Part shown: piece by piece, positions 5,029 to 61,408 of the stretch
Layout of the letters: the number at the start of each line of letters is the position of its first letter
Position numbering within the stretch: the stretch's first letter is position 1
DNA from: Terrabacter sp. Ter38
GTDB taxonomy: Bacteria > Actinomycetota > Actinomycetes > Actinomycetales > Dermatophilaceae
Direction: 5' to 3'
NCBI RefSeq assembly: GCF_024519435.1
Contig: NZ_JALJRZ010000002.1
Span: 1 to 64,000, forward strand
DNA: 64,000 nucleotides
The notes under the pieces: model-generated
What the model saw: the letters and a program-made list of their open reading frames with translations, nothing else
What the model was told of the DNA's origin: nothing
The model's database searches: none
Made by a program: the position numbers and the translations under genes

Positions 5029-6063
5029 TCACAACCCGGGCGGCAGCCGCGTCGCCGGTGGTGTCACCGAGACCGTCTTCCCGTCGATCGTGACCTCGCT
5101 GAGCCACATCGTCCGCCCGGGCACCTCCGAGCCGATCGAGTCGGGCGCCCACGCGTGGTAGACCATGAGCACGCGCCCGTCCTTCTCGAGGAGCGCGCAG
5201 TGGCCCGGGCCCGCCGCGACGTCGCTGCTCGTCAGCACCGGAGCGGGGTCCTTCGTGAACGGCCCGGTCGGGGACGCCGCGGTGGCGTGCCCCACGGCGT
5301 ACCGGTCGCTGCCGTAGTCGTTGGCGGAGTAGAAGAGGTGGAAGACGCCGTCCCGCTCCCAGACGAAGGGCGCCTCGACGAGCTGACCCTCCCACGGGAG
5401 GTCCTGTCGGACCAGCCGCTTCGGTTCGCCCTCGAGTCGCAAGCCGTCGGCCGAGAGTCGCTGGACGGAGATCCACGTGTCCCTGCCGACCGCGTTGCCG
5501 TCGTTCTTCCAGTAGAGGTATGCCGTGCCGTCCGTCGCGACGAAGGGTGACGCGTCGATGGACCCGCCCTCGTCCTGCTCGCAGACGAGGGGTTTGGTGC
5601 TCGTGTCCCGGTAGGGGCCCTTGGGGTCGTCGGCGACGGCGAGACCGATGCACTGGAGGGCGGGGTCGGGCGCCATCGTCGTGTAGTACATGACCCACCG
5701 GTCACCGAAGCGGTGCGCCTCGGGCGCCCAGACCTTGCCGGGCGTCGTCCACGACGCGAGCTCGGGCAGGGCGTCACTGCCCTGGGTCCACGTCGTGAGA
5801 TCGTCGCTGACGAGGGTCTGGACGTTCATCCCGTTGCCGTTCGTGGCGATGGCCACCCAGCCGTCGCCGTCCGGGAGGATCTGCGGGTCGGGGAAGTGGT
5901 TCGGCCAGACCGGGTTCGTCGCGGCCGGTGCTGCCTGCGTAACGGGGGTGGTCACGGTGCCTCCGGGGTTGGTGGACAGGCTGGTCGGGGTCCCGCCCCC
6001 GCAGCCGGCGAGGAGCACGGCTGCGAGGGCGACGGTCGGGGTGCGGGCGAGGACGCGCCTCAT
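5029..6063 (-). CDS. Exported GH43 glycoside hydrolase lipoprotein
   Basis: 344-residue protein with a lipoprotein signal: hydrophobic residues 9-20 and lipobox LLAGC with Cys21. The rest is a five-bladed GH43 catalytic domain. FPDPQILPDG carries the catalytic-base Asp, VWAPEAH the second conserved acid (Glu in this variant), and LVEAPFVWERDG the acid Glu; GPGHCALL is the metal-site region. GH43 enzymes cut alpha-L-arabinofuranosyl or beta-xylosyl bonds. The start ATG at 6063 overlaps the upstream GH43 stop by four bases, so the two are translationally coupled. It is the last gene of the six-gene operon and would trim arabinan outside the cell. Exact specificity cannot be read from the sequence. 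Confidence 0.85.
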   Translation of the reverse strand: MRRVLARTPTVALAAVLLAGCGGGTPTSLSTNPGGTVTTPVTQAAPAATNPVWPNHFPDPQILPDGDGWVAIATNGNGMNVQTLVSDDLTTWTQGSDALPELASWTTPGKVWAPEAHRFGDRWVMYYTTMAPDPALQCIGLAVADDPKGPYRDTSTKPLVCEQDEGGSIDASPFVATDGTAYLYWKNDGNAVGRDTWISVQRLSADGLRLEGEPKRLVRQDLPWEGQLVEAPFVWERDGVFHLFYSANDYGSDRYAVGHATAASPTGPFTKDPAPVLTSSDVAAGPGHCALLEKDGRVLMVYHAWAPDSIGSEVPGRTMWLSEVTIDGKTVSVTPPATRLPPGL

Positions 6064-8381
6064 CCGGCGCCCGGGTCGGCCGGCCAGCTCGACGCGTAGA
6101 ACCGCAGGTGGTCGACCGCCGCCGTGACGGCCGGGCTCGCACCACCGTGCGCGACGAGCCCGATGCGCGGGTGCGTGTCGGCGCGGAAGGTCCACGTCGC
6201 TCCCCACGTCCAGTGCACGCCGTCGCGGCTCGTGCCGGCCCGGTAGAGGTGCTCGCCGGCGGCGTTCCGGTGGTGGGCGAGGCGCAGCCACAGGGTCGGG
6301 GTCGAGGTGCCGATGACGGCACCCCCGTAGCTCGTCGGGCCGTCGGGCGCGCCCGGGTCGGCCGCGGTCTCCCGACCGAACTCGGTCTGGCGCGTGTTCC
6401 AGATCGCGACGTTCGAGAGGCGCGCGAAGTCGTCGTCGTCCTCGTAGGCGACGAGCCCGACCTGCTGGTAGTTGCGCACGGTGTCGACCCCGAGGTCGAG
6501 CGTCGTCTTCGCCTCGGCGATCCAGTCGCCGTCGCCCGGGGTGTCGTGGAGCAGCACGCTTGCGGTGTTGCCCCCACCGACGAGGTCGGACCCCTCGACC
6601 GGCCAGCGCAGGCTGCCCCCCGAGACGGTGACGGCCGGGTTGCGCCGCACCCACGTGAAGCCGGTGAGGCTGGGGTCGTCGAAGTCGTCGGACTCGAGCA
6701 GGGCGCCGGCGACGGGCACGGGAGCGAGGGACGTGGCATCCCGGGCGGCCGGGTTGACGACGACGTTGTCGACGACGGCGCGGCTGCTGCTGAGTCGCAC
6801 CGGGGCGGCAGCCGGCGTGACGTCGCCGGGCACCGTCACGCGCGCGACGACGTCGGCGAGGTCGCTCTCGGTGACCTCTGCGGTCAGGTCGTCGGCCGTC
6901 GCCTCGACCGTCAGCGTGCGCCACGCCCCGGCAGGGAGGGGTGGCAGAGTGGTCGAGGACGAGCGCACGGTGCCGTCGCGGTCGACCTGGGCGGTCAGGC
7001 GTGAGCCCCTGGGGTCGAGCGAGACCTTGATCGACGGGTCGCGACCGAGCAGGACCCGCAGCGGCTCGGTGCCGCGGTGGTCGAGGCGCACGTGGAGCGG
7101 GCCGGTCGGCGCCGAGGCGGTCGTGGAGGCGGTGCCGTGGACGAGCGCCGTCCGGCCGGCCACCTGATCCGTCGGCCCTGCGTCCAGACCCCTGAAGCCG
7201 CTCGCAGACGGGTCGGTCGTCGTGATCCCGAGCCCGGAGGCCAGCGATGGCGCCGGCTGGGGCGTGTCCGACGGCCCGGCCCCGGCACGGGTGCGCGGCC
7301 AGCCGTCGACCCAGTCGAGGCGGTCGAGGAGCATCGGTCGACGGTTGATGCCGAAGGTCGTCGTCAGCCACGGGTTCGTCCGGTCGATCGCGTGGTAGGC
7401 GATGAAATCACGCCCCTCGGCATCCGTGACGACGGCGTGGTGACCGGCGCCGACGAAGCGGTTGCCGTTCTGCGTCAGGACCGTCGTGCCGCCGACGCGC
7501 GACGTGAGGAGCGAGGTGCCCTCGGCGTCGACGAACGGCCCGAGCGGCGACCGCGAGCGACCGGCGAAGACGGAGTAGCCGGTCGTCGGACCCGCGCAGC
7601 AGTTCGCGGCCGAGCCCATGAGGTAGTAGAAGTCGCCGTGGCGCACCACGTAGGACCCCTCGTAGCGGTTGTCGACGGCGACCTGCGTGGCCGGGCCGAC
7701 CGGGGTCAGTCCGTCGGCCGACATCCTCGTCACCCAGAGGCCGCCGAAGTAGCTGCCGTAGTAGAGGTAGCGCTGGCCGGCGACGTCCGTGAAGCCCGCC
7801 GGGTCGAACGTCCAGAGGAACCCGCCACCCGACGCCGGCCGGGGTGGGACGGCCGGCGCGGGGGCGGGAGTCCAGGGACCTGCCGGGGTGGGCGCCGTCG
7901 CCGCACCGATCGCGGAGTCGTCACCGGGGTTGAGGGTCGTGTCCGTCACGGTGAAGTAGAGGACGTACCGGCCTGCGACATAGCGGACGTCGGGCGCCCA
8001 CAGACCCGACGTCGCGGTTGCCCACGAGGGACGGTTGCCGGCGTCGAAGACCGTGCCGAGATACTCCCAGCTCGACCAGTCCCGGGTGCGCGCCAGGTGG
8101 ATCGCGCCCGGAGCGTCACCCGCGCGCAGCGGGTCCGACGTCGCGTACGCGTACCACCAGCCGTCGCGTCCGCGGATGACGGACGGGTCGGCGAAGGTGT
8201 CCGAGAACGCGTCCGAGACCGCGTTGTCGTAGGTCGCTGGGGCCGCGGCGGACGGCATACGACCGGCGGACGCGGAGGCCTCAGGGACCGCGGCGCTCAC
8301 GCCAACGGCAGCGAGGAACGCTGCGAGACAGGCGGTTCCGCGGCGAAAGGCTCGGCCACGCAGGAAGGTCAGGGGACGCAT
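6060..8381 (-). CDS. Secreted GH43 arabinanase-like enzyme with C-terminal lectin-like modules
   Basis: 773-residue secreted enzyme. A basic N-terminus and hydrophobic segment (about 14-38, SASASAG cleavage region) form a Sec signal. The GH43 catalytic domain spans about residues 55-360: ADPSVIRG holds the base Asp, GLWAPDVRYV the pKa-modulating Asp, YEGSYVVRHG the acid Glu, and GAGHHAVVTD the His pair of the calcium site. NCCAGP resembles the Cys pair seen in some endo-arabinanases. About residues 400-770 form two beta-rich regions resembling concanavalin/DUF1349-type domains that may bind substrate. It lies 9 bases after the permease gene, and its stop overlaps the next GH43 start. Probably cuts arabinan or arabinoxylan outside the cell. 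Confidence 0.85.
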   Translation of the reverse strand: MRPLTFLRGRAFRRGTACLAAFLAAVGVSAAVPEASASAGRMPSAAAPATYDNAVSDAFSDTFADPSVIRGRDGWWYAYATSDPLRAGDAPGAIHLARTRDWSSWEYLGTVFDAGNRPSWATATSGLWAPDVRYVAGRYVLYFTVTDTTLNPGDDSAIGAATAPTPAGPWTPAPAPAVPPRPASGGGFLWTFDPAGFTDVAGQRYLYYGSYFGGLWVTRMSADGLTPVGPATQVAVDNRYEGSYVVRHGDFYYLMGSAANCCAGPTTGYSVFAGRSRSPLGPFVDAEGTSLLTSRVGGTTVLTQNGNRFVGAGHHAVVTDAEGRDFIAYHAIDRTNPWLTTTFGINRRPMLLDRLDWVDGWPRTRAGAGPSDTPQPAPSLASGLGITTTDPSASGFRGLDAGPTDQVAGRTALVHGTASTTASAPTGPLHVRLDHRGTEPLRVLLGRDPSIKVSLDPRGSRLTAQVDRDGTVRSSSTTLPPLPAGAWRTLTVEATADDLTAEVTESDLADVVARVTVPGDVTPAAAPVRLSSSRAVVDNVVVNPAARDATSLAPVPVAGALLESDDFDDPSLTGFTWVRRNPAVTVSGGSLRWPVEGSDLVGGGNTASVLLHDTPGDGDWIAEAKTTLDLGVDTVRNYQQVGLVAYEDDDDFARLSNVAIWNTRQTEFGRETAADPGAPDGPTSYGGAVIGTSTPTLWLRLAHHRNAAGEHLYRAGTSRDGVHWTWGATWTFRADTHPRIGLVAHGGASPAVTAAVDHLRFYASSWPADPGAG

Positions 8382-49223: not shown

Positions 49224-49844
49224 CTACCCAGTCGAGCGGGAGGACATCGCTGGTGGGAGGGCGGCGGCGGCGCCGGTGGGCCAGTCCGCCGGCTCGGGGC
49301 CGAGGGCGGCCAGCTCGGCCACCTGCTCCCGGCACCACGTCGACACGTCGCGCCGCCCGGACCTGACGTCGGCGGCGAACTCGCGCCACGGCACCCACTC
49401 GGCAGCCTCGACCTCGGCCGGGTCGAGGCCGGGCCGGGGTGCGACCCCGCTGACCTGGCCCACGAGGACCGGGCAGAGCTCCCACTCGACGACGCCGTCC
49501 ATCTCGGCGCGGTAGGAGAAGCGGGGCAGCACGAGGCGCAGGCCGTGCACGTCGAGGCCGAGCTCGTCCCGGGCGCGGCGCCGCACGGCGTCCTCGACGG
49601 GCTCACCGGGCGCCGGGTGTCCGCAGGCGGAGTTGGTCCAGACGCCGGGGAAGGTCGCCTTGGCGAGGGCGCGCTGCGTCACGAGCAGGGAGCCGGCGTC
49701 GTCGAGGAGGTAGACGGAGAAGGCGAGGTGGAGCGGGGTGTCGGCATGGTGGACCGTCGCCTTGGGCGCCGTGCCGATCGCCTCACCGTCCGGGGAGACG
49801 AGGACGACGAGCTCCTCGGCAGCGTCCCGCATCACGACGGTCAC
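49224..49844 (-). CDS. idi: Isopentenyl-diphosphate delta-isomerase (type I)
   Basis: 206-residue Nudix-fold enzyme that interconverts IPP and DMAPP. The catalytic Cys is in WTNSACGHPAPGE and the Nudix-like helix reads AVRRRARDELGL; VVEWELCPVLVG carries the second catalytic Glu. LFxxNK-equivalent LVTQRALAKATFPGVW precedes the Cys. The GTG at 49844 overlaps the oxidoreductase stop (GTGA); an ATG at 49832 is also possible. In this operon it would feed prenyl donor to the UbiA enzyme. Confidence 0.92.
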   Translation of the reverse strand: MTVVMRDAAEELVVLVSPDGEAIGTAPKATVHHADTPLHLAFSVYLLDDAGSLLVTQRALAKATFPGVWTNSACGHPAPGEPVEDAVRRRARDELGLDVHGLRLVLPRFSYRAEMDGVVEWELCPVLVGQVSGVAPRPGLDPAEVEAAEWVPWREFAADVRSGRRDVSTWCREQVAELAALGPEPADWPTGAAAALPPAMSSRSTG

Positions 49845-50956
49845 CGACCCGGCCTCGCGAGCTCGTTGACCGCCCCGCGGAAGACCGGGGGCAGGGTCGC
49901 GGCGGCGGGGACGAGCAGCCGCCGGGTCCAGGCCGGTCGCGTGACCTGGACGAGCGCGTGGGTGAGCAGCGTGTAGCGCCGGGTGGCCGCACGCCACGAC
50001 CGCTCGTAGGACTGCGGGTCGTCAGCGACGACCGCCGCGACCGCCGCCCGCGCGTGGGCGAGGCCGAGGGAGATGCCCTCTCCCGTCAGGGCGTCGACGT
50101 AGCCGCTCGCGTCCCCCGCGAGCAGGACGCGGCCCGCGACGCGGCGCGTCGTGCGCTGGCGCAGCGGTCCCGCGCCGCGCACCGACGTCACCACCGGTGC
50201 CCCGTCGAGGCGATCGCGCAGCTCCGGGAACTCGGCGAGACTCTCGGACAAGGGGTTTCGCTGCTTGCTGAGCACCGCCACCCCGACGAGGTCGTCGGCG
50301 ACGGGCGTCACGTACGCCTCCCCGTGAGCGCCCCAGTGCACCTCGACGTGGTCTCCCCAGGGGCGTATGCCGTAGTGCTGGCGCAGCCCGTAGCGGCGCA
50401 GGGGACGCGCGTCGGCGGTCCGAGCGACGCCTCCGCTCCCGCTGGGGAGGCGGCGGACGGTGGTGTGGTCGCGGTCGAGCCCGAGCGAGCGGCGGGTCGG
50501 CGAGTGCAGTCCGTCGGCGGCGATGGCCCACGGCGCGGTGAGTGTCGGCCCGTCATCGCCCGAGTCGTCGGTGCGCACGGTCACGCCGGTGTCGTCCTGC
50601 GTCACCTCGGTCGCGCCGAACGGGAGCACCTCGACGCCGGCGGCAGCGACGGCCTCGCTCAGGGCGGCGTGCAGGGTGGTTCGCCGGATGCCGCGGCCGG
50701 GGCCGGCCGTGAAGTCCGCCTCCGCGACCCGGCCCCGGGCGACGTAGCGGATGCCGCGGAGGTCGTGTCCGTCCGGGTCGACCCCCAGGCCGGCGAGCGC
50801 CTGGAGACCGCCGGGCATCAGACCCTCGCCGCAGGCCTTGTCGATGGAGCCGGCCCGCGGCTCGAGGACAACGGGTGACAGGCCGGAGCGGACGGCATAC
50901 AACGCCGTGGCGAGACCGACGGGCCCGCCGCCGATGACGATGACGTCGACGCTCAC
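49841..50956 (-). CDS. FAD-dependent oxidoreductase (geranylgeranyl-reductase/monooxygenase type)
   Basis: 371-residue flavoprotein. VIVIGGGPVGLATALYAVRS (5-24) is the FAD-binding Rossmann motif, CGEGLMPGGLQAL the second conserved segment of the geranylgeranyl-reductase group, and LLAGDASGYVDALTGEGISL the GD motif near the flavin. It either reduces prenyl chains or hydroxylates an aromatic ring; the SrsC hydroxylase of the Streptomyces phenolic-lipid operon is a functional parallel, not a demonstrated homologue. The GTG start overlaps the methyltransferase stop by four bases. Confidence 0.85.
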   Translation of the reverse strand: MSVDVIVIGGGPVGLATALYAVRSGLSPVVLEPRAGSIDKACGEGLMPGGLQALAGLGVDPDGHDLRGIRYVARGRVAEADFTAGPGRGIRRTTLHAALSEAVAAAGVEVLPFGATEVTQDDTGVTVRTDDSGDDGPTLTAPWAIAADGLHSPTRRSLGLDRDHTTVRRLPSGSGGVARTADARPLRRYGLRQHYGIRPWGDHVEVHWGAHGEAYVTPVADDLVGVAVLSKQRNPLSESLAEFPELRDRLDGAPVVTSVRGAGPLRQRTTRRVAGRVLLAGDASGYVDALTGEGISLGLAHARAAVAAVVADDPQSYERSWRAATRRYTLLTHALVQVTRPAWTRRLLVPAAATLPPVFRGAVNELARPGR

Positions 50957-51504
50957 GGGGCGGCCCCGCTGGGAGCGTCTGCGGGCGAGGCGATCTCGCG
51001 GAGGGCGGCGTTCTCGACGCGGATGCGGACGGCGAGCAGGGCTGCGTTGGCGACGGTGAAGACGAGCGCCGTGACCCAGGCGGTGTGCACGAGCGGCAGG
51101 GCGAAGCCCTCGACGACGACGGCGACGTAGTTCGGGTGGGGGATGACGCCGTAGGGCCCTCGGCGGACGAGCGCGAGCCCCGGCACGACGATGACGCGCG
51201 TGTTCCACTGGTTGCCGAGGGTCGTGATGCACCACCAGCGCAGGGCCTGGCTGGCCACGACGAGCGCGAGCATGATCCAGGCGAGGGCCGGGACCAGCGG
51301 GCGGTCGGCGAGCCACACCTCCGCGACGGCGCCGACGAGCAGCCCGGTGTGGAGCACGACCATGACGGGGTAGTGCGACTGGCCGCGCTCGACGCCACCG
51401 CGCGAGAACGCCCACGCCGCATGGCGTTTCGACACGACGAGCTCGGCGAGGCGCTCGAGGCCGACGAGCAGGACGAGGCCGGTGAAGAGCCACTGGGACG
51501 TCAT
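50953..51504 (-). CDS. Isoprenylcysteine-carboxyl-methyltransferase-like membrane methyltransferase
   Basis: 183-residue membrane protein with four to five helices. NTRVIVVPGLALVRRGPYGV and HPNYVAVVVEGFALPL form the ICMT SAM-binding signature. Beside a type III PKS this family methylates phenolic lipids (as SrsB in Streptomyces griseus), which fits better here than protein methylation. AGGAG lies eight bases before the ATG at 51504. Confidence 0.88.
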   Translation of the reverse strand: MTSQWLFTGLVLLVGLERLAELVVSKRHAAWAFSRGGVERGQSHYPVMVVLHTGLLVGAVAEVWLADRPLVPALAWIMLALVVASQALRWWCITTLGNQWNTRVIVVPGLALVRRGPYGVIPHPNYVAVVVEGFALPLVHTAWVTALVFTVANAALLAVRIRVENAALREIASPADAPSGAAP

Positions 51505-51516
51505 CGGCCACTCCTG

Positions 51517-52587
51517 TCAGTCGGCCGCGCGGAGCAGGACGAGCTCGAGGCAGAAGCCGGGGCCCATCGCCATGAGCACGCCCCACGAGCCGGGCGCGGG
51601 GGTGTGGTCCGCGAGGGTGTCGGCGAGCACGTGGAGCACGGAGGCGGAGCTGAGGTTGCCGATGCGGTCGAGCGAGCTCCACGTGACGCCGAGTGCCTCG
51701 CGCTCCACCTCGAGGGCCTCCTGCATCGCCTCGAGGACCTTGGGGCCGCCGGGGTGGGCGACCCACCAGCCGATGTCGGCGCGGGTCAGGCCCTGGCCCG
51801 CGAGGAAACGGTCGACGTCGTCGCGGACGTTCTCGCGCACGAGGTCGGGGACCTCGGCGCCGAGGACGATGCGCAGTCCTGTCGCGCCGACGTCCCAGCC
51901 CATGGCGCGCTCGGTGCCGGGGTAGAGCCGGCTCCGGGTGGCGACGACGCGCGGCTGGTCGGGCGCGAGCGCCGCGGCGCGGTCGGCCCCCACCATGACG
52001 ACCGCGGCGGCCCCGTCGCCGAAGAGGCCGCTGGCGACGAGGTTCGCGGTCGACCGGTCGTCGCGCTGGACGGTGAGGCTGCACAGCTCGACCGAGAGGA
52101 GCACCGCGACGTCGGCGGGGTGGCCGACGAGGTGGTCGTGCACGCGGGCCACACCGGCGGCGCCGGCGACGCACCCGAGCCCGACGAGCGGGACGCGCTT
52201 CACGTCGTCGCGCAGGCCGATCTCGGCGGCGACGCGGGCCTCGATCGACGGGACGGCGAGGCCGGTGATCGTCGTCGACATGATGAGATCGACGTCCTGC
52301 GGGGTGAGACCGCACGCCGCGAGCGCCTTGGAGACGGCGTGTGAGCCGAGCTCGGTGGCGACCCGGATGAACTCGTCGTTGGCCGCCCCGAAGTCGGCGA
52401 GCTGCCAGTAGCGCTCGAGGGGCAGGGCGAGGTGACGCTGGCTCACCCCGGCGTTGGCGTGGAACCGCTCGAGGAGCGCTCGGTCGGAGCCGGTGGAGCC
52501 GAGCACGTCGGCGAAGGCAGCCGTGACCTCGGCCTGCGCGTAGCTGTGCTCGGGCAGGACGCCGCGGACGGCCGCTAGGTGGCTCAC
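51517..52587 (-). CDS. Type III polyketide synthase
   Basis: 356-residue chalcone/stilbene-synthase-type homodimeric enzyme that extends an acyl starter with malonyl-CoA and cyclises it. The Cys-His-Asn triad is visible: Cys139 in [12 protein letters not shown], His in [12 protein letters not shown] and Asn in [20 protein letters not shown]-like [12 protein letters not shown] precedes it in the fold. It resembles alkylresorcinol/alkylpyrone synthases of actinobacteria. GTG start at 52587 with AGGGTGGGCAGG just upstream. The product here may be an alkylresorcinol-type ring that the neighbouring enzymes methylate, oxidise and prenylate. Confidence 0.92.
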
Positions 52588-52669
52588 CCTGCCCACCCTA
52601 GGTGGCCCGTGGCCCGACGAGGTCCTGACGCTGGACACCCTTGCGTCCCTGGCGCTGGCACCTGCCATC

Positions 52670-53485
52670 TCAGCGACGAGCGACGAGGGCCACGACATTG
52701 ACGAGCGCGATGCCGATGGCGGCCACGAAGGGGAGCCGGCCCCGTGCGAGGACCGCGACGGCGGCGAGCGCCCCACAGACGCCGAGCACCAGGACGCCCG
52801 CGGCATCCAGGCCGGGGCCGGAGGCCGCCACGACGGTCCCCGCGAGCAGCACGACGGGGGCCAGCCAGCGCACGGTCCGTGCGCCCAGCCGCTGCGGCAG
52901 TCCCTTGACCCCCGTGGCCTCGTCGTCGGCGAGGTCCGGCAGGGCGTTGAGCAGGTGCGCCCCGACGCCGAGGAGCGCGCCCGTCACCATGACCCAGGCC
53001 GCCGGCCACACGGGCGCGGGGAGCGCGAGCGTCACGACGGCGGGCAGCGCGCCGAAGGCGATGGCATACGGCAGCGGGGAGAGCACGGACCGCTTGAACC
53101 AGAGGTTGTAGGCCCACCCCGACGCGACGCCCAGCAGGAGGTGGACGAGCCCGGAGGCGAGGCCGCACGCGAGCGACAGGACGGTGCAGGCGGCGAGCGC
53201 GACCCCGGTGGCGACGCGCACCGTCCGCTCCGACACGACGCCGCGTGCGATCGGCTTGTCGGCGCGGCCGACGGCCCGGTCCCGGGCGGCGTCGAGCAGG
53301 TCGTTGCTCCAGCCGATGGAGAGCTGGCCCGTGAGGACCGCTGCGGTCACGAGCAGACCGCGCTCGAGCGTGTGCCCCGCCGACCACGCGAGCAGGGCCG
53401 TGAGGACCGTGACGGCGAGCGTGGGCCCGGGGTGGCACGCGAGCGCCAGACCCTGCAGCGTCGCTCTCCCTCGCCCGGCCGGCAC
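52670..53485 (-). CDS. UbiA-family membrane prenyltransferase
   Basis: 271-residue protein with eight or nine membrane helices. Both prenyl-diphosphate-binding Asp motifs are present: [18 protein letters not shown] (61-78) and [18 protein letters not shown]. Members attach prenyl chains to aromatic rings or quinone precursors in the membrane. GTG start at 53485. It heads the minus-strand cluster, 82 bases before the PKS gene. With idi, PKS, methyltransferase and oxidoreductase it suggests a prenylated aromatic or quinone product. Confidence 0.88.
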
Positions 53486-53607: not shown

Positions 53608-54903
53608 ATGCGTGAGTACCCCTACGCGTTCCACGTCGCCCTCGACGGGAACGGCCTGAACGGCCTCGAGGGGCGGGCTGGCGTGTGCCTCTTCCGCTAC
53701 GACCCCGTGACCGGCGACCACTCCTACAAGGTCAGCTACTTCCACGGGGCCTCCGGGGGCCACGCGCCGAGCGTCGACCCGAGCCGGCGGGTGGGCTTCC
53801 TCGGCAACACCGGTCAGCACCTGCTGTTCTACGACCTCGCCACGCTCGAGGAGGTCGACCGGGTCTCGACGCTGCGCTTCGAGGTGCCCGACACGACGAT
53901 CAAGGGCAGCACCCACCTCGTGTGGCTCGACGACACCCAGTTCGTCACGGCGATCGGCGAGCACCTCTGGCGCTTCGACGTCAACCGGCTCACCAAGGCG
54001 GAGGTCGTCGCCCCGCACGGCCTCAAGGTCCCGCACGCGATGAAGCGGACGGCGTCGGGGCGATACATCGTCTACGGCGGCATGGACCACCCCTCCCGCG
54101 GCGAGGCGCGCGAGGTCGGCATCCTCGACACGGTCTCGGGCGAGGTCCGCACCCTGACGCTGCCGACGACCTGCTGGCACGTCGTGTGCCACCCGGTGCT
54201 CGACGTCTTCTACGCCGTCTCCTTCCGCGTGCACCCGGCTGACCGGAGCGACTACGCGCACTGGGGCATGGCGTGGCTGCGGCAGTACGCGTTCGAGATC
54301 GACGCCGAGCAGGGCCAGGTGCTACGCCACTGGGTCGCCGACCGCGACGTGCCGGCGCACATCAACTCCGACGTCACGATCTCGGACACCGAGCTCATCT
54401 TCTGCACCGGGGGCAGCCACACGGTCGTCCTCGTCGACCTCGAGACGATGACCCACCACCGCCTCGTGGACGAGCACCCCGGGAGCCTCGAGTCGTGGGC
54501 CTACCCGCGCCAGTCGCTCAACACGCTCGCGGAGTCCTTCATGCGGGCCAACGTCGTCAGCAACGCCAACCTCTTCGCCGAGTCGTTCCGCGTCAGCCGC
54601 GGCTCGCTCATCGACGGCATCTACGCGTGCCAGCTCTCGGCCGACCAGACGCTGCTCTTCACGGCCAACCGGGGGCAGAACCACATCAGCGTCTACGACT
54701 ACCCGTCGCTGGAGCTGCGCGACCGCATCGTCATGCCGGAGCTCGGCGAGATCGACGCCGGCCTGTCGGACTGGTCCGACCCCCGACTCGGCTTCCACCA
54801 CTCCTACCTCGTCAGCCCCGACACGCCGGAGAGCCCGGACAGCCGGGACGGACCCGACAGCACGTCCCACCCGCAGCGCACAGCCCAGGCAGGAGAGCTC
54901 TGA
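53608..54903 (+). CDS. Beta-propeller protein heading an uncharacterised operon
   Basis: 431-residue soluble protein without signal peptide or membrane helix. The pattern of about seven repeats with alternating strands (FLGNTGQHLLFYDLATLEEV, TISDTELIFCTGGSHTVVLV, LSADQTLLFTANRGQNHISV) indicates a seven-bladed beta-propeller of the YVTN/WD-like type. Conserved-looking His residues (HVVCHPVLD, GSTHLVW, HAMK) could sit in a central metal or substrate site, as in lactonase or oxygenase propellers; this is inference. The Ser/Asp/Pro-rich tail (about 405-431) is disordered. The TGA overlaps the next ATG by one base. Confidence 0.72.
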   Translation: MREYPYAFHVALDGNGLNGLEGRAGVCLFRYDPVTGDHSYKVSYFHGASGGHAPSVDPSRRVGFLGNTGQHLLFYDLATLEEVDRVSTLRFEVPDTTIKGSTHLVWLDDTQFVTAIGEHLWRFDVNRLTKAEVVAPHGLKVPHAMKRTASGRYIVYGGMDHPSRGEAREVGILDTVSGEVRTLTLPTTCWHVVCHPVLDVFYAVSFRVHPADRSDYAHWGMAWLRQYAFEIDAEQGQVLRHWVADRDVPAHINSDVTISDTELIFCTGGSHTVVLVDLETMTHHRLVDEHPGSLESWAYPRQSLNTLAESFMRANVVSNANLFAESFRVSRGSLIDGIYACQLSADQTLLFTANRGQNHISVYDYPSLELRDRIVMPELGEIDAGLSDWSDPRLGFHHSYLVSPDTPESPDSRDGPDSTSHPQRTAQAGEL

Positions 54904-55349
54904 TGGCCACCTACTCGATCGACACCGCTCTGAGCGGGAGCGTCAACAGCGACGTCATGGCCGACGTCACGAGCCAGCTCGCCGGGCTCGACGACATGAA
55001 GCTGACCCTTGCCGGCGACAACACCGTGCACACCGACTCCAGCGTCGCGCTCGCCCCGGTGACGACGACCTCGACCGTCGACTCGACCGCCAAGCTGGAC
55101 TCGACGTCCACGCTGGACACCGCCTCGAAGATCGACTCGGCGGCCGTGGTCGACCTGCGGCCCGTCGCCGTGGACTCGTGCGTGCGTCTCGAGCTGGCGC
55201 CACCGCCCGCGACGGAGGTGTCGACGCCCTACGAGCAGCAGTGGAGCTGGTCGGTGCTGGGCCTCGAGGTCTTCGGCGTCACCGTGCGCGGCCGCACCTC
55301 GACGCACGTGCGCCCGGTCCCCGGCGGCCCCGTCGTCATCGACCTCTGA
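54903..55349 (+). CDS. Ser/Thr/Asp-repeat protein of unknown function
   Basis: 148-residue protein. The first 100 residues are polar with a recurring S/T-x-x-D pattern (STVDSTAKLDSTSTLDTASK) and could form a beta-stack or solenoid; the last 45 form a compact region with Trp (YEQQWSWSVLGLEVFGVTVR). No signal peptide, no family recognised. Its ATG overlaps the propeller stop (TGATG) and the next gene begins nine bases later, so it is a firm member of this operon. Confidence 0.65.
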   Translation: MATYSIDTALSGSVNSDVMADVTSQLAGLDDMKLTLAGDNTVHTDSSVALAPVTTTSTVDSTAKLDSTSTLDTASKIDSAAVVDLRPVAVDSCVRLELAPPPATEVSTPYEQQWSWSVLGLEVFGVTVRGRTSTHVRPVPGGPVVIDL

Positions 55350-55358
55350 GGTGTGGCC

Positions 55359-56060
55359 ATGCCGACCCCACGTCGCAAGCCGACCGCCGCGAAGTCCCCC
55401 TCGACCGAGAGCCGGCCACCCCGCCGACGACGTCCTGCAACCAAGCCCGACGACGCCGTGGTGCTCGCGGGACCGCCGGGCCGGCTCACGACCACCGTGA
55501 CGGTCGAGAACCTCACCGCCGACCGGCTCGTCGTCCGGCGCCCCACGCTGCACCTCGACGGCGAAGCCGTGACCGGCGCGGCGAGCGCCGTCATCCGGGC
55601 GGGCCGGACCGTCGAGGTCCCGGTCGTCGTGCCCCTGCCTGCCACCACCCCACCCGGTCGTCACGAGGCCGAGATGGAGCTCGGCGGCGTGCGCCACCGC
55701 GTCGTCGTCGAGGTGGCCCCCCACTTCTCGCTCGAGCTGAGCCCGCGCCGCGTCCTCGCGGTCGAGGGGAGCCAGGACGTGGCCCTCGTCGTCACCAACA
55801 CCGGCAACGTGCGTATGCCGCTGGCCGCGGTCACGATGGCCCGCACCGACGACGGTGGGCCGGACCCGGGCCCCGACGTCGTCCTCACGCTCGACGCCCC
55901 TGTGGTCGTCGAGCCCGGCGAGACCGTCACGCTGGCCGCTCGTCTCGAGGTCCCCGCCGGGCTCGAGGCCGCACGGCGGCACACCGCCTCCGTCCCCGTC
56001 GGCACCGCCGACCTGGACGTCGTCATCCTTCCGCGAGACCGATCGGAGTCGGAAACATGA
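55359..56060 (+). CDS. Ig-like (NEW3/CARDB-type) domain protein
   Basis: 233-residue protein. A very basic N-terminus (RRKPTAAK, PPRRRRPATKP, 1-28) is followed by two tandem Ig-like domains: GRLTTTVTVENLTADRLVVR, IRAGRTVEVPVVVPLPATTP, then FSLELSPRRVLAVEGSQDVA, VVTNTGNVRMPLAAVTMART and VVVEPGETVTLAARLEVPAG. No signal peptide, so it is cytoplasmic or exported by another route. I choose ATG 55359, with GAGG just upstream, over GTG 55353. Overlaps the next gene by ATGA. Function unknown. Confidence 0.7.
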   Translation: MPTPRRKPTAAKSPSTESRPPRRRRPATKPDDAVVLAGPPGRLTTTVTVENLTADRLVVRRPTLHLDGEAVTGAASAVIRAGRTVEVPVVVPLPATTPPGRHEAEMELGGVRHRVVVEVAPHFSLELSPRRVLAVEGSQDVALVVTNTGNVRMPLAAVTMARTDDGGPDPGPDVVLTLDAPVVVEPGETVTLAARLEVPAGLEAARRHTASVPVGTADLDVVILPRDRSESET

Positions 56061-57016
56061 GCACCTCAACGCCTGACCTTTTCACCACGTTGCGCAACGG
56101 CTGGGTCGATGCCGTCCAGCAGTGGTCCGACGCGTCCCAGTCGCTCTGGGACGAGGTCGCCGCGCCGTTCACGGGTGGCGGCAGTGCTCCGTCCGGCTCC
56201 GCGTGGACCGCGTGGCCGGCGTGGGGCCAGCAGCGCTCCCGGCCTGCCCACGGGCACGACCACGGGCACCACCACGGGCACCACCACGGGCGCCACGACG
56301 GTCCGCACCACGACGAACGACACGACCACGAGCACTGGCACGACGATCACGACCACAGGCGCCATGGGAAGGACCACGACGGCTACGGGTGCGGCTGTGG
56401 TGGCGGCTGCGGTGGCGGCTGCGGCTGCGAGGAGCGGGGCGAGGCCCACGGCAGCTCGACGTGCGGCTGTGGGGGTGCCTGCTCCTGCTGCGTCCCCGAC
56501 GCCGACGTCGTGGTCCACACCCGCGTCGGCGAGCGGCGCATCGTCCCGCTGGCCCTGCACAACTCGTGGCGTCGCGAGCGCCCGGTCACCCTCGCTGTCG
56601 GTCCTTGGCACCTCGGCAGCGGCACCGACCTCGCGGTCGTCGCGGTGCTCGAGGAGGAGCAGGTGACCCTCGCGCCGTGCGAGGACCGCATCGTGCGTCT
56701 TGTCATCGGCGTCACGACCACGGGCGACGGTGGGGGCAAGCCCGGCGACGGCAACGGCAATGGCAATGGCACGGGCGGCACCGGAGGGGGCTCCGACGCG
56801 AACGGCCCGAGCGATGGGAAGGGCGGCTCCGACATCCACCTCGACACGCATGTGGGGATGGGTCAGGGCCGGATGCCCGGCGACCTCGACGCGTGCGCGT
56901 CCGCCTATGCCGACGTGCGCTTCGAGGGCTGCTCACGGCCCCTCCGGGTCGCCGTGGTCGTGAGCCCGGCGCCGTGCCATCCGGTCGAGGCCGGCTGCGA
57001 CTGCGGCTGCTGCTGA
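56057..57016 (+). CDS. His-rich / Gly-Cys-rich metal-binding protein with Ig-like domain
   Basis: 319-residue protein. Residues 1-40 form an amphipathic helix (LRNGWVDAVQQWSDASQSLW). Residues 65-107 hold 20 His among Gly, Asp and Arg, and residues 112-145 hold ten Cys in GCGCGGGCGGGCGC and CGCGGACSCC. Residues 150-215 read like one Ig-like domain (VVVHTRVGERRIVPLALHNS), then a Gly/Asn-rich linker, and a C-terminal part ends in GCDCGCC. The two clusters should bind many metal ions (zinc, nickel, copper or iron are candidates). ATGA overlap with the gene before it. No family recognised. Confidence 0.7.
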   Translation: MSTSTPDLFTTLRNGWVDAVQQWSDASQSLWDEVAAPFTGGGSAPSGSAWTAWPAWGQQRSRPAHGHDHGHHHGHHHGRHDGPHHDERHDHEHWHDDHDHRRHGKDHDGYGCGCGGGCGGGCGCEERGEAHGSSTCGCGGACSCCVPDADVVVHTRVGERRIVPLALHNSWRRERPVTLAVGPWHLGSGTDLAVVAVLEEEQVTLAPCEDRIVRLVIGVTTTGDGGGKPGDGNGNGNGTGGTGGGSDANGPSDGKGGSDIHLDTHVGMGQGRMPGDLDACASAYADVRFEGCSRPLRVAVVVSPAPCHPVEAGCDCGCC

Positions 57017-57027
57017 GGAGGCGCGCG

Positions 57028-57822
57028 ATGTCGTCGAACTCGAGGAGCCAGGACGAGATGCTGGCGAGGATCACCGAGCTGGCGCGCGATGCCTGGTCGG
57101 CGCAGGCCAGCCTCGCCCGCCAGTCGATCGAGCTGGGCCGTGCCACGCTCGCGTCCGAGGTGGACCCGACCGCCGCGGGGCGGGCGTGGATGGAGGCGGT
57201 GAGCCGTGAGGGCGCCCGCTACTGGAAGGACGTGGGTGAGCTCGGCCTCGACGTGGCCGGCAGCCTCGTCGCCATCGGCAGCCGGAGCATGGCCCGGGTC
57301 ATCTCCGACACCCGGTCCGCGACGCGGGCGGCCACCCGGGCCGAGCCGGGGCGACGACCCGCGGCCGGCCCGGCACCGCACCGGGCCCACCGGGCCCACC
57401 GTGACGGTCGCGATGATGGCGACGATCCCGCCGACGTCGTCGTCACCGGTCCGGCTTCGGAGGGCGACGGGGCCGGGGCGCAGGGGGCCGGGGACGGCAG
57501 CCGGCGAGCCCGGGTGACGCTGCGCGGGCGACCGGGAGAGACGGCGACCGGCACCATCACGCTGTCCAACGCGCACCCTCGGGCCCGCAAGGTCCTGCTG
57601 TCGGCCGGCGCGCTGCAGCCCGACACGGGTCGGCACGTCGAGCTCGGGCTGCGGCTCGATCCCGAGGGCGTCACGATCCCGGCGGGCTCCGAGCACGACG
57701 TCCTGCTCGAGGTCGACCTCGCCCCTGACGTGGTGCGTCCGGGTGAGCGCTACACGGGCGTCATCCAGGTGACGGGCGGCGTCGAGGCGGAGCTGGACGT
57801 GGTGGTCGTCGTCGAGGAGTGA
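57028..57822 (+). CDS. Helical-Ig-like protein, last gene of the operon
   Basis: 264-residue protein. Residues 1-95 are helical (EMLARITELARDAWSAQASL, LGRATLASEVDPTAAGRAWM, YWKDVGELGLDVAGSLVAIG) and resemble phasin-type amphipathic coats; the N-terminus of the preceding His/Cys protein is similar. An Arg/Ala/Gly linker leads to a C-terminal Ig-like domain (RVTLRGRPGETATGTITLSN, GSEHDVLLEVDLAPDVVRPG). GAGGAGG lies seven bases before the ATG. The 3' end overlaps the convergent epimerase gene by 62 bases. Function unknown. Confidence 0.68.
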   Translation: MSSNSRSQDEMLARITELARDAWSAQASLARQSIELGRATLASEVDPTAAGRAWMEAVSREGARYWKDVGELGLDVAGSLVAIGSRSMARVISDTRSATRAATRAEPGRRPAAGPAPHRAHRAHRDGRDDGDDPADVVVTGPASEGDGAGAQGAGDGSRRARVTLRGRPGETATGTITLSNAHPRARKVLLSAGALQPDTGRHVELGLRLDPEGVTIPAGSEHDVLLEVDLAPDVVRPGERYTGVIQVTGGVEAELDVVVVVEE

Positions 57823-58945
57823 CGGTTCGGCCCGACGTCGACCCATGGCCGTCCGACCGTGGCCCTGCGTCGGGCGCGACCTCCGTGAGCGGCCGGGGCT
57901 CGAGCGGACGGGCCGCCCGCACCGCCGGAGCGAGGCGCAGCGACTCCCGCACGACCCGGGGCAGGTCGGGTCCGACGGCCAGCCACGCGAGAGAGCCGGC
58001 CACGGCCTCACGGGCTGGGCGGGCGGCATACCCGATCTCGCGGGCCCGGTCCGAGGCGTACCAGTAGTAGCGCCCGACCGTCGTCGCCTCCTCGCGGGTC
58101 GACAGCGGAGGCGTCGACGTGAGCAGACCCCAGGCCTCGCTGGCACCGGCCGCCAGCCAGGCCGCTGCGGCGGGAAGCTCGAACACCGGCCGACCGACGC
58201 CGGCCAGGTCCGCGACGAGGCCGTGCAGCGTGTGCCACGAGACGTCCTCCCCACCGATGAGGTAACGCTCGCCCGGCAGACCGCGTTCGAGCAGTGTCAC
58301 GTGACCCGCGCCGACGTCGCGGGCATCGACGACGTTGCAGCCGCCGGGGAACGTGCTGCGGGTGGCGTCGAGGAGGTAGCGCAGCACGATGGCATTGCTC
58401 GGGCCCAGCCGGTCGTACGGTCCGCCGAGGACGACGGTCGGCAGGGCGAGCACCACCTCGAGCCCGGTGCGCTCGGCGACCTCGAGGGCTACCTGCTCCT
58501 GCAGGACCTTGCTCGCGTAGTAGGCGGGGGCCGGTTCGGTGCCGAGGTGGTGGCTCTCGTCGCGGGGCAGTGGTTGCAGGCTCGATCCGCGGGTCACCGC
58601 GGAGCTCGTCACGACGACCCGAGTGGCACCGGCAGCAGCCGCCGCCTCGAGGACGGCCCGGGTCCCGGTGACGTTGACGTCGGTGAGGTGGGCCGTGGCG
58701 GCGGAGTCGTAGGAGTAGATGGCGGCGCAGTGCACCACGGCGTCCACGCCCTCGAAGGCACGGGTGAGGGAGGTCGCGTCGGTCAGGGTCGCGCGCGCCT
58801 GGCCCACCGTGCCGAGGGCGAGCAACCGCTGGGGCGGCCGGCGCCCGGGGCGGGTCACGGCCACCACGTCGTGGCCACGGGTCACCGCGGCCGCGACGAC
58901 GTGGTGGCCGACCAGACCGGTGGCACCGGTGACCGCCACCCTCAC
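57761..58945 (-). CDS. NAD-dependent epimerase/dehydratase-family protein
   Basis: 394-residue extended short-chain dehydrogenase. VAVTGATGLVGHHVVAAAVT (3-22) is the Rossmann motif; the catalytic Tyr-x3-Lys is YYASKVLQEQ, with Ser in VTSSAVT. GGCNVVDARDVGAGHV is the conserved later segment. It resembles sterol/sugar epimerase-like (dihydroflavonol reductase-like) enzymes. GTG start at 58945 overlaps the DUF362 gene stop. An Arg/Pro-rich tail of about 25 residues runs into the plus-strand operon; a shorter product would end before it only by an earlier stop, which is absent. Confidence 0.85.
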   Translation of the reverse strand: MRVAVTGATGLVGHHVVAAAVTRGHDVVAVTRPGRRPPQRLLALGTVGQARATLTDATSLTRAFEGVDAVVHCAAIYSYDSAATAHLTDVNVTGTRAVLEAAAAAGATRVVVTSSAVTRGSSLQPLPRDESHHLGTEPAPAYYASKVLQEQVALEVAERTGLEVVLALPTVVLGGPYDRLGPSNAIVLRYLLDATRSTFPGGCNVVDARDVGAGHVTLLERGLPGERYLIGGEDVSWHTLHGLVADLAGVGRPVFELPAAAAWLAAGASEAWGLLTSTPPLSTREEATTVGRYYWYASDRAREIGYAARPAREAVAGSLAWLAVGPDLPRVVRESLRLAPAVRAARPLEPRPLTEVAPDAGPRSDGHGSTSGRTVTPRRRPPRPAPPRRRPSPG

Positions 58946-60927
58946 GGCGCCGCCCCGGCCCGGGTGCCACGCACGTGCCGGAAGCCGTGCTGGTCGAGAG
59001 CGGGGTCGGGCGCGCCGGCCGGTTGGGCGCCGCCCCTTCCTCCACCGTCGCCGCTGCCGATGCGAGAGGTGAGGGCGTCGACGAGCATCCGCACCGACTC
59101 GGTGAGCAGGGGCTCGGACGGGTCGGGCGGCGGACGGCCGATGCGATGCTCGCGGCCCTCGAAGCAGGCCTCGAGGTTGTCGAAGGTCGAGGTGAAGAAG
59201 CGGCGGTAGGCCTCCTCGAGGAGGGGCCGGTGCAGCTCGGGCACCGAGGGTAGGTCGACCGCCTCGAGCGCCGTGGGCAGCGTGAAGAGCTGCCGGCCCC
59301 GGATGGTCACCATGGTGCCGGACCCACCGGCACGGTCGAAGGTGAGGGTGCCGTCGTCGTGCACGGCCGAACCGTTGGGGCTCGAGACGGTCCGCCACAG
59401 CAGCCGGTGGCGGTCCGGGCCGCGTTCGACGAGCTCGATCTTGCAGACGTCGATGGGCTCGCCGCCCCACGCGGCCAGGTAGTTCGGCTGCGGCAGGTAG
59501 AGGTTGCGCTCGGCCTGACGCTGTCGTGCGTCGCCTCCCCCCTCGGCTGGCACGGCATCCCCGACGAGCACGCGCCGGCCGCCGATGTAGTCGGCCATGA
59601 GGCTGATGCCCTCGGCGACGTCGACACGCTCGACCCACGCGTCGAAGTCGCCCGGGACGAGCCGGCGGACCTCGAAGAGGGTCGCCCCGTTCACGAGGCA
59701 CCACCGCAGGGCGTCGGGGTCGTCCGACATCGGCAGCCGGTCGATGACCGCGTCGACGCGGGCGAGCTCCTCGGGGAGCCCGTCGTAGTCCGCAGCGGAG
59801 TGCACGCCGGGGTCGAAACCGAGGGAGACGACCCGCCGCTCGACCCGTGACTTGTCCATCGTCGCGGCCCAGGTCTCGCCGCCCGCGGCCAGTGTCGCGG
59901 CCAGACCGAGCAGGGCCACGAGGCCGGCCTGTCCGACGGGGTCGGTGGCGGCCCGGACCGCCTCGGTCACGACCGGCCGCAGGGCCGCGAGCACGGGGTC
60001 GGCCCGGACCGACCCGGCATCCGGGCCGCCTGTCGCCGCGCTGAGGACCCGAGCCAGGCGAACGTCCCGAGCCACCCGACGGACTGCCCTGACGGCCAGC
60101 GGGTGGGCGCGGGCGACCCCGCGGAAGGGCCGATGGTCGCCCTCCAGCGTCCCGGACGGCGCCCCGATCGCTGCCACGGCTCCCTTGACCAGCGACGAGC
60201 TCGACGGGTCGACCCCGAGCAGGCCCGCGAGCGTGATGTCCGCCAGCACCGGATCGCGCGCGACGACGACGGTGTCCGTTTCCGTCACGTCCGGGAGGCG
60301 GCCACCGTCGGCGCCGCCGCTCGTCGAGAGGGCGTCGAGCAGCGCGAGGTGCGGGCCGAGGTGCCGGACCACCTCGACGGCCACGTCAGCGGGCTCGCAC
60401 CCGGCGACCTCCGGGGCGGCACGGAGCAGCGCGTCGAGGCACCCGGCATACGTGTCGACGAGGTCGGTGACGGCACGGCCGACGACGACGCGGGTGCCGG
60501 CGGTCAGCCACGCCCTCGAGACCGGCTGCGCCTCGAGGGCGCTGGTCCCGGGGGCCGGTGAGGGAACGAGGTCCTCGGCGAGGTCGATGACGGCATACGA
60601 CCGTCCCCGATCCGTGGTGCCGGTGAGGCCCGCAGCGTGCGCGAGCGCCCCCACCTCGCGGTGCCCGCGGTCGCGGTCCCGGCTCGTCAGCAGGCCCGCG
60701 ACGGCCACCTCGCACCCCGCCTCCACGAGCACGTCGACGACGACGTGCACGACGGTCGCCGACACCGGGGTCGGCGGTGAGAGCCGAACGAGGACGACCG
60801 CCGTGCCCGGTAGGGGCGACGGCGGCAGCACCCGGCGCACCGCTGCTGCGAGGAGCGCGGGGTCACGTCCTCGGACGACGATGGCGTCCGGAGGGTCAGA
60901 CGTTTCGGCGAGGCCGGCGGGCCACAT
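58942..60927 (-). CDS. DUF362-domain protein
   Basis: 661-residue protein. The N-terminal half fits DUF362 (AVVLVRLSPPTPVSATVVHV, VVDVLVEAGCEVAVAGLL, RSYAVIDLAEDL) and the C-terminal part is a conserved extension (LRWCLVNGATLFEVRRLVPG, DVAEGISLMADYIGGRRVLV) that I recall in actinobacterial members. The four-Cys iron-sulfur motif of some DUF362 proteins is not present. ATG at 60927 follows AGGAGG very closely. Translationally coupled to the epimerase. Function unknown; a two-step modification of one metabolite is a reasonable guess. Confidence 0.7.
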   Translation of the reverse strand: MWPAGLAETSDPPDAIVVRGRDPALLAAAVRRVLPPSPLPGTAVVLVRLSPPTPVSATVVHVVVDVLVEAGCEVAVAGLLTSRDRDRGHREVGALAHAAGLTGTTDRGRSYAVIDLAEDLVPSPAPGTSALEAQPVSRAWLTAGTRVVVGRAVTDLVDTYAGCLDALLRAAPEVAGCEPADVAVEVVRHLGPHLALLDALSTSGGADGGRLPDVTETDTVVVARDPVLADITLAGLLGVDPSSSSLVKGAVAAIGAPSGTLEGDHRPFRGVARAHPLAVRAVRRVARDVRLARVLSAATGGPDAGSVRADPVLAALRPVVTEAVRAATDPVGQAGLVALLGLAATLAAGGETWAATMDKSRVERRVVSLGFDPGVHSAADYDGLPEELARVDAVIDRLPMSDDPDALRWCLVNGATLFEVRRLVPGDFDAWVERVDVAEGISLMADYIGGRRVLVGDAVPAEGGGDARQRQAERNLYLPQPNYLAAWGGEPIDVCKIELVERGPDRHRLLWRTVSSPNGSAVHDDGTLTFDRAGGSGTMVTIRGRQLFTLPTALEAVDLPSVPELHRPLLEEAYRRFFTSTFDNLEACFEGREHRIGRPPPDPSEPLLTESVRMLVDALTSRIGSGDGGGRGGAQPAGAPDPALDQHGFRHVRGTRAGAAP

Positions 60928-61006: not shown

Positions 61007-61408
61007 TCAGGGGGTCGGGACGATCCGGACGACGACGCGGGTGCTGTTGCCGCGACGCACGACCCACTCGATGGCCATGAAGATGCGGAACTCGACACCG
61101 TACTTGCGGCTGAGCCGGCGGTTCACGGCCTCGGAGGCGGCCGAGTCGCGGATGATCTCGGCGCGGCCCTCGACGACGGGCGCGTCGGGCTTGACGTTGC
61201 CGCGACGGTCGCACGGCTGGAGCGTGACGCGCGGGTCGTTGCGCAGGCGCTTGAGCTTGCCGGCACCCTCAGGAGTGCTGACGATCGCGGCGCCGGCGTC
61301 GGGCAGCACCCACACGGGGGTCGGGACCGGCTCGCCGTTGCGGCGGTAGGTCGTCAGCAGCACGAAGCGTTCGCCGCCGAGATTGTGGAGCGTGGGCGCC
61401 TGGGTCAT
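61007..61408 (-). CDS. PPOX-class F420-dependent oxidoreductase-like protein
   Basis: 133-residue split-barrel protein: FVLLTTYRRNGEPVPTPVWV and AAIVSTPEGAGKLKRLRNDP followed by VTLQPCDRRGNV and VEGRAEII are typical of actinobacterial F420-binding PPOX proteins (Rv1155-like). These reduce or oxidise small molecules with F420. ATG at 61408 is preferred over an upstream GTG at 61414. Located divergently from the polymerase-ligase fusion. Confidence 0.85.
   Translation of the reverse strand: MTQAPTLHNLGGERFVLLTTYRRNGEPVPTPVWVLPDAGAAIVSTPEGAGKLKRLRNDPRVTLQPCDRRGNVKPDAPVVEGRAEIIRDSAASEAVNRRLSRKYGVEFRIFMAIEWVVRRGNSTRVVVRIVPTP

Follow-up and report, generated by a model that had tools for sequence, protein, structure and literature searches.

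How should a set of bacterial genes be read whose propeller protein and four companions reach no family cut-off, yet which recurs in six phyla with the four companions in a fixed order? The question is raised by a locus of Terrabacter sp. Ter38, on a stretch of 64,000 nucleotides (the first 64,000 positions of contig NZ_JALJRZ010000002.1, assembly GCF_024519435.1) that we refer to as the window. An earlier note, made from the letters of the window alone, described there a five-gene operon of a propeller, a repeat protein and three immunoglobulin (Ig)-like proteins, here called A, B, C, D and E. We find the five genes to be linked as described and the set to be incomplete: two genes on the opposite (minus) strand, F and G, which occupy 57761-60927 (or up to 61098), belong to it as well, and the system comprises at least seven genes, A–E plus F and G. 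A further small protein gene, encoded outside the window, is called H; numbers with L denote loci and three-digit numbers with G denote genomes of the comparison.

The genes A–E all lie on the plus strand, span 53608-57822 and follow one another with a 1-base overlap (A/B), a 9-base gap (B/C), a 4-base overlap (C/D) and an 11-base gap (D/E), junctions that agree with those first reported. F and G run convergent to E; the 3′ ends of F and E overlap by 62 bases, and F and G overlap by 4 bases. None of the five proteins A–E reaches a cut-off in Pfam or NCBIfam, in line with the earlier statement that no known family fits them as complete proteins, and the highest 19-residue window among them on the Kyte-Doolittle scale is 1.46, i.e. 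there is no clear membrane span or, as had been anticipated, signal peptide. The ratio of nonsynonymous to synonymous substitutions (dN/dS) in A–G ranges from 0.08 (A) to 0.37 (E) against the nearest relative (L013), and from 0.15 to 0.33 against L014. L017 and L052 are further removed, with partial saturation of synonymous sites; against them the ratio is 0.20 to 0.87, the top value being that of E against L017. A–G are real genes under purifying selection.

A scan for A in 84,980 species genomes, based on an alignment of six sequences and run via two short peptide patterns, yielded 47 further loci, assigned by record title to six phyla (Actinobacteria, Acidobacteria, Proteobacteria, Gemmatimonadetes, Verrucomicrobia and Bacteroidetes); metagenome bins are frequent among them, and a few loci may have been given the wrong phylum through errors of binning. 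Profile searches of the 48 sources, the window included, recovered as partners G (40 sources), F (30), E (27), D (20), B (19), C (18) and H (10), counts that apply to loci chosen by A and in which several contigs end within the system, the D and E profiles cross-match and F in L030 is a distant weak match. The order B-C-D-E on a single strand is kept in 17 of the 17 sources that have at least three of the four genes (L025, where the contig ends in a single frame matched by both D and E, shows B-C-D only, and D is in pieces in L023). Among the loci so ordered are a Lamellibrachia symbiont bin (L038), Gemmatimonas (L041), Nitriliruptorales (L045), Saprospiraceae (L050, L051) and Opitutaceae (L059). 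Where A, G, F and H stand relative to this block differs between loci.

Co-occurrence was followed in samples of the window's order and phylum, where at most 13 or 6 candidates for C, respectively, were scored per genome. Within the order, A was detected in 4 of the 198 genomes sampled and C in the identical four, the window's own included. Within the phylum sample, A occurs in 5 of 396 genomes (one weak match, in G508, with 27% identity over 114 residues of A and an expectation (E) value of 5e-4, was set aside) and C in 5; both occur together in four, two of which are shared with the order sample. Fourteen of 149 genomes of the window's family carry A, always in single copy, as do 4 of the 9 genomes shown for the genus. 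Because of this co-occurrence and the partial presence in the order, phylum and family samples, close relatives appear to have the system either entirely or not at all, with a patchy distribution. Order and co-occurrence had been proposed as a check in the earlier note, which named two findings that would speak against it, a lack of any conserved neighbourhood and membership of the genes in known unrelated families; we found neither. A mobile-element origin was considered and rejected, A having no match in plasmid records, phage records or viral contigs. A search of the window's own genome for the Copper-bind family gave no match.

Genes A–G of the window, with positions, strands and features
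Gene	Position	Strand	Features
A	53608..54903	+	431 amino acids; seven-bladed beta-propeller (model); no family; ten invariant His
B	54903..55349	+	148 amino acids; repeat protein; conserved C-terminal stretch
C	55359..56060	+	233 amino acids; Ig-like (NEW3-like) protein
D	56057..57016	+	319 amino acids; amphipathic N-terminus; variable His tract; Cys-rich Ig-like core
E	57028..57822	+	264 amino acids; phasin-like amphipathic N-terminal half; Ig-like C-terminal domain
F	57761..58945	-	394 amino acids; GTG start; NAD-dependent epimerase/dehydratase-type reductase
G	58942..60927	-	~660 amino acids with ATG at 60927, 718 if GTG at 61098; N-terminal part DUF362-related, C-terminal part unnamed

Protein A had been taken for a propeller, and a structure model from 43 sequences bears this out with a predicted local distance difference test (pLDDT) score of 83.5 and a predicted template modelling (pTM) score of 0.85. 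By our own reading of the model strands, A is predicted to consist of seven blades of four strands each, the last of which is closed by the C-terminal strand 396-402 together with three N-terminal strands; a helical insert at ~293-329 has lower confidence. Ten histidines (H9, H52, H103, H137, H143, H191, H241, H251, H397 and H398) are invariant in 43 of 43 sequences, a set taken from 48 sequences of A after L018, L019 and L059, missed by the motif finder, and L056 and L058, with A in two frames, were left out. Positions H52, H103, H143, H191 and H397/H398 lie at most 2 residues from the innermost strands of blades 1, 2, 3, 4 and 7 as we assign them, and D255 and D336 lie close to the presumed innermost strands of blades 5 and 6. 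Because of these positions, A would carry a His/Asp ring at one mouth of its channel; metal- or haem-binding propellers have a similar ring of residues there. This invariant set is enzyme-like and agrees with the proposal that A is possibly an enzyme.

Which enzyme A might be is less well defined by comparison with known proteins. A Foldseek search with an earlier, poorer model (pLDDT 69.4) returned 1813 matches at E values ≤0.001, to propellers of many kinds. Among the best 50 of these, NirN ranked first (E value 1.7e-12), template modelling scores on the query were ≤0.54, and NirN, NirF, YVTN, WD40 and designed propellers scored alike; since so many kinds score alike, the fold of A is confirmed and its enzyme class is not. 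A matches no Pfam family at E values up to 1, nor the carotenoid cleavage oxygenase family, and comparison of A, E and a relative of G with the PDB by sequence gave nothing below an E value of 0.057. Near 9776-10734 in L056 and L058, the propeller gene is split over two reading frames, either as a pseudogene or through an assembly error.

Three of the four companions share a domain. Profile-profile comparison detects a common Ig-like domain in D and E (98%, E value 1.4e-13), C and E (96%, 2.2e-9) and C and D (81%, 1.3e-5). This part of the earlier description of three Ig-like, NEW3-type proteins holds, and the family label does not: the Pfam cut-off for NPCBM_assoc/NEW3 (24.4 bits) is missed by C of the window (17.6 bits) and by C (17.5) and D (12.8) of L050. 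D and E further carry N-termini, described as phasin-like, whose amphipathic character is borne out by their hydrophobic moment, reached by 0 of 500 shuffles for D and by 6 for E of the window, and by 1, 2 and 2 for relatives. The portrayal of D as rich in both His and Cys applies to cysteine, of which all 8 D proteins counted have 9 to 18; for histidine, two members of the window's family have 27 and 24 and the other six 2 to 10. The His tract is therefore not a feature of the family and is confined to some actinobacterial members. B consists of short repeats that differ between lineages, followed by a conserved C-terminal stretch. E of L011 and L012 has a Cys-rich C-terminal tail whose CPxC...C pattern resembles a zinc ribbon; E of the window lacks this tail.

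The remaining partners are F, G and H. F exceeds the Pfam cut-off for PF01370 (97.8 against 20.9 bits), and its nearest NCBIfam models are the hopanoid epimerase HpnA (E value 4.6e-57), SdmB (1.2e-31) and OleD (1.4e-19); as judged from these profiles, F is a reductase of the nicotinamide adenine dinucleotide (NAD)-epimerase superfamily and the equivalog of none of the three. A relative of G from Streptomyces noursei (L036) exceeds the threshold for DUF362 (73.7 against 24 bits) and scores 838 bits against a profile begun from G of the window and its L012 relative; G of the window itself does not reach the DUF362 cut-off. The C-terminal half of G, ~300 amino acids without a library name, can stand alone. 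H lies near Polyketide_cyc2 ‘lipid transport’ (E value 1.9e-4, below cut-off), and H of L011 stays under the Pfam cut-offs for SRPBCC and Polyketide_cyc (22.2 against 27.4 and 19.3 against 23.4 bits). In Saccharothrix (L057), a protein that does exceed the cut-off for an SRPBCC family (PF03364, 63.3 bits) adjoins A.

A different context is found where the four companions occur apart from the propeller. In genome G428 (L086, 7949-14837), B-C-D-E share one run on the minus strand with a polyprenyl synthase (PF00348, 1.2e-47), another E-like protein, a 437-amino-acid protein without a family, an SCP2-like protein and a methyltransferase. Relatives of the synthase, the second E-like, the 437-amino-acid and the SCP2-like proteins stand together, at 53-74% identity, in G602 (L089, 1-5944), from another genus of the same family, where B-C-D-E lie on the strand opposite to the synthase group. 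Motifs of the 437-amino-acid protein suggest the label CrtC-like, for which the libraries gave no support. A was not found in either genome (G602 is 59% complete, and its empty result shows nothing by itself), and neither 20-kilobase stretch holds F, G or H. C occurs in 4 of 66 genomes of the class concerned. This association is the main, thin hint that the substrate of the system may be an isoprenoid.

Conversely, the putative enzymes occur without most of the companions. A, F and G together with a short phasin-like protein and without B-C-D are present in six Streptomyces loci (L033-L037, L039), Mycobacterium (L027), Novosphingobium (L042) and Verrucomicrobia (L044); the short protein is related to the N-terminal half of E, has no Ig domain and replaces E in these loci. 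In two Acetobacteraceae loci (L043, L048), A, H, F and G are retained, and a phasin-like gene was not found. Searching for C in 17 genomes, we obtained strong matches in the 7 whose loci hold C and none or weak matches only in the others; four weak matches (E values 6e-8 to 1e-4), which we took as other Ig domains, would raise 7 of 17 to 11 of 17 if counted.

Our preferred reading, a tentative one, sees B-C-D-E as a scaffold or coat in the cytoplasm that carries phasin-like amphipathic helices, and A, F, G and H as proteins that modify a compound of hydrophobic, perhaps isoprenoid, nature at its surface. In this scheme, B would be the repeat rod of the scaffold and C a linker of Ig-like domains, and in D and E the Ig-like domain would be joined to an amphipathic segment able to lie on a hydrophobic, possibly lipid, surface. 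A would offer a His-rich propeller centre as a likely metal site, F would reduce a carbonyl, and H together with the unnamed part of G may hold the compound; the division of labour and any order of the reactions are ones that we infer. We favour a scaffold because of the Ig domain shared by C, D and E, the amphipathic N-termini and the lack of a membrane span in A–E, for which a cytoplasmic multi-protein assembly is the most natural reading. A hydrophobic substrate is suggested by the proximity of F to HpnA, SdmB and OleD and of H to Polyketide_cyc2, by the SRPBCC protein in L057 and by the polyprenyl synthase in L086 and L089, and a metal site in A by the ten invariant histidines, several of them near the innermost strands. 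Should the reading be right, the coated surfaces of bacteria would gain a new kind and the propeller enzymes a new family.

Several findings weigh against it. Many loci keep A and G without B-C-D-E, with no strong C elsewhere in those genomes, and the scaffold is therefore dispensable for the enzymes. No phasin family was matched in Pfam at E values up to 1 by D and E of the window or five relatives, and the amphipathic character of the short Streptomyces form is weak, being reached by 26 of 500 shuffles. F remains under the cut-offs of HpnA (193.4 against 367.65 bits), SdmB (110.7 against 600) and OleD (70.7 against 580). The polyprenyl link comes from two related genomes only, in which the synthase of L089 is cut by the contig end and the SCP2-like match of L086 is weak (15.1 bits, cut-off 21.3); a 17-residue relic resembling the L086 synthase, upstream of B in L012 (2253-2624, minus), where A, G and B-C-D-E are present, is likewise a weak match (E value 0.001). 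Motifs had suggested an SRPBCC domain in the C-terminal half of G, for which the libraries gave no match, and this lowers our confidence in the reading slightly.

Two alternatives come close to the preferred reading. The first, which we regard as doubtful though the strongest of the competitors, is a soluble pathway of specialised metabolism, in which A, F, G and H would make a small molecule and B-C-D-E would serve as carrier, chaperone or delivery complex without a lipid coat. It draws on 11 loci of Streptomyces, Saccharothrix and Crossiella (L028-L032, L040, L053-L057) in which the neighbour of A is equivalent to just the C-terminal half of G. PhyH-carrier-protein, TauD, aldehyde dehydrogenase or class III aminotransferase genes lie nearby and give these loci the look of biosynthetic clusters; the patchy spread of A in the family and genus of the window points the same way. 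The cluster-like loci, however, lack B-C-D-E, and comparison of neighbourhoods (flanks ≤10 kilobases) revealed no carrier-protein or synthase gene that they share with the other groups. As observations apart, the Saccharothrix and Crossiella loci have two copies of half-G around A, and ~4 kilobases from A in L040 lies a frame (5269-6249, minus), not found in other loci, whose motifs we take to be those of class I terpene synthases, a label without library support.

The second, somewhat improbable to our mind, is a protein-only assembly, i.e. a filament, sheet or shell of B, C, D and E that gathers the enzymes without lipid. The repetitive B, the Ig-like C, D and E, their fixed order and the fact that they are always encoded together would suit such an assembly, as would the second-nearest model of the L086 polyprenyl synthase, the cargo of family 2 encapsulins (152.7 bits, cut-off 450). 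On the other hand, the families shared between groups include no shell-type gene, a comparison in which no direct search for shells was made, and the amphipathic segments would be left without a surface to bind.

A far-reaching extension of the coat reading, which we consider unlikely, sees an undescribed organelle-like compartment: an isoprenoid-type lipid body in a B-C-D-E coat with the histidine-centred propeller as resident metalloenzyme, spread between phyla as a cassette with exchangeable enzyme and coat parts. Metal handling, with D storing metal or delivering it to the His-rich propeller, is much less probable still: the 18 Cys and 27 His of D in the window and the ten invariant His of A would fit, but the His tract is lost in most of the D relatives counted, and A, F and G occur without D. 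An accidental neighbourhood or spurious reading frames, of which high guanine-plus-cytosine content yields many long ones, have a negligible probability and are already refuted by a gene order that 17 of 17 loci from different phyla have in common, the co-occurrence of A and C and the purifying selection.

Comparison with known systems sets the preferred reading of a coated surface in context. Carotenoid oxygenases and NirN/NirF are histidine-centred propeller enzymes, the carotenoid cleavage oxygenase holding its iron by four axial histidines. A resembles them in its seven-blade model and in the His near the inner strands, but it matches no sequence family and unrelated propellers score alike in Foldseek. 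With phasins and the coats of polyhydroxyalkanoate granules, the system shares the amphipathic N-terminal segments of D and E and a short helical protein that accompanies enzymes; it differs in the lack of a phasin family match, in the additional Ig-like domains and B, and in having no polymer synthase family among the genes tested, where no search for PhaC was made. F falls into the same NAD-epimerase superfamily as HpnA, SdmB and OleD and is nearest to HpnA, and among DUF362 proteins the family is reached by the L036 relative of G and not by G of the window. MLDS of Rhodococcus, a coat protein of bacterial lipid droplets (PMC5504291), is alike in concept, with neutral lipid covered by a layer of protein. 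Family 2 encapsulins with polyprenyl cargo (PMC8346489 and PMC8049743) share with L086 and L089 a polyprenyl synthase beside a protein-assembly operon; they differ in that the synthase stays below the cargo cut-off, and no shell gene was recognised among shared families, no HK97-fold shell model having been searched directly.

For none of phasins, encapsulins, carotenoid oxygenases and HpnA did the searches above find the feature that decides membership, the gene set as a whole corresponds to no system that we could name, and we found no description of it in openly licensed literature; we therefore regard the system as new in its gene families and organisation. Even if the coat reading is wrong, the exact co-occurrence together with enzyme-only, E-only and scaffold-only loci provides a natural comparison set, and the relatives of the window include culturable Terrabacter, Phycicoccus and Streptomyces.

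The earlier note had further raised a possible link of A–E to a phenolic-lipid/prenyl cluster that lies divergent from A (49844-53485, minus). Its four genes encode real enzymes, namely a flavin adenine dinucleotide (FAD) oxidoreductase, an ICMT-type methyltransferase, a type III polyketide synthase and a UbiA prenyltransferase. Conservation does not support a functional link: among 53 sources searched, the four genes are confined to the window and three Terrabacter records (L013-L015), and one further, weak match to the type III synthase lies in L034 (25% identity, E value 2e-4).

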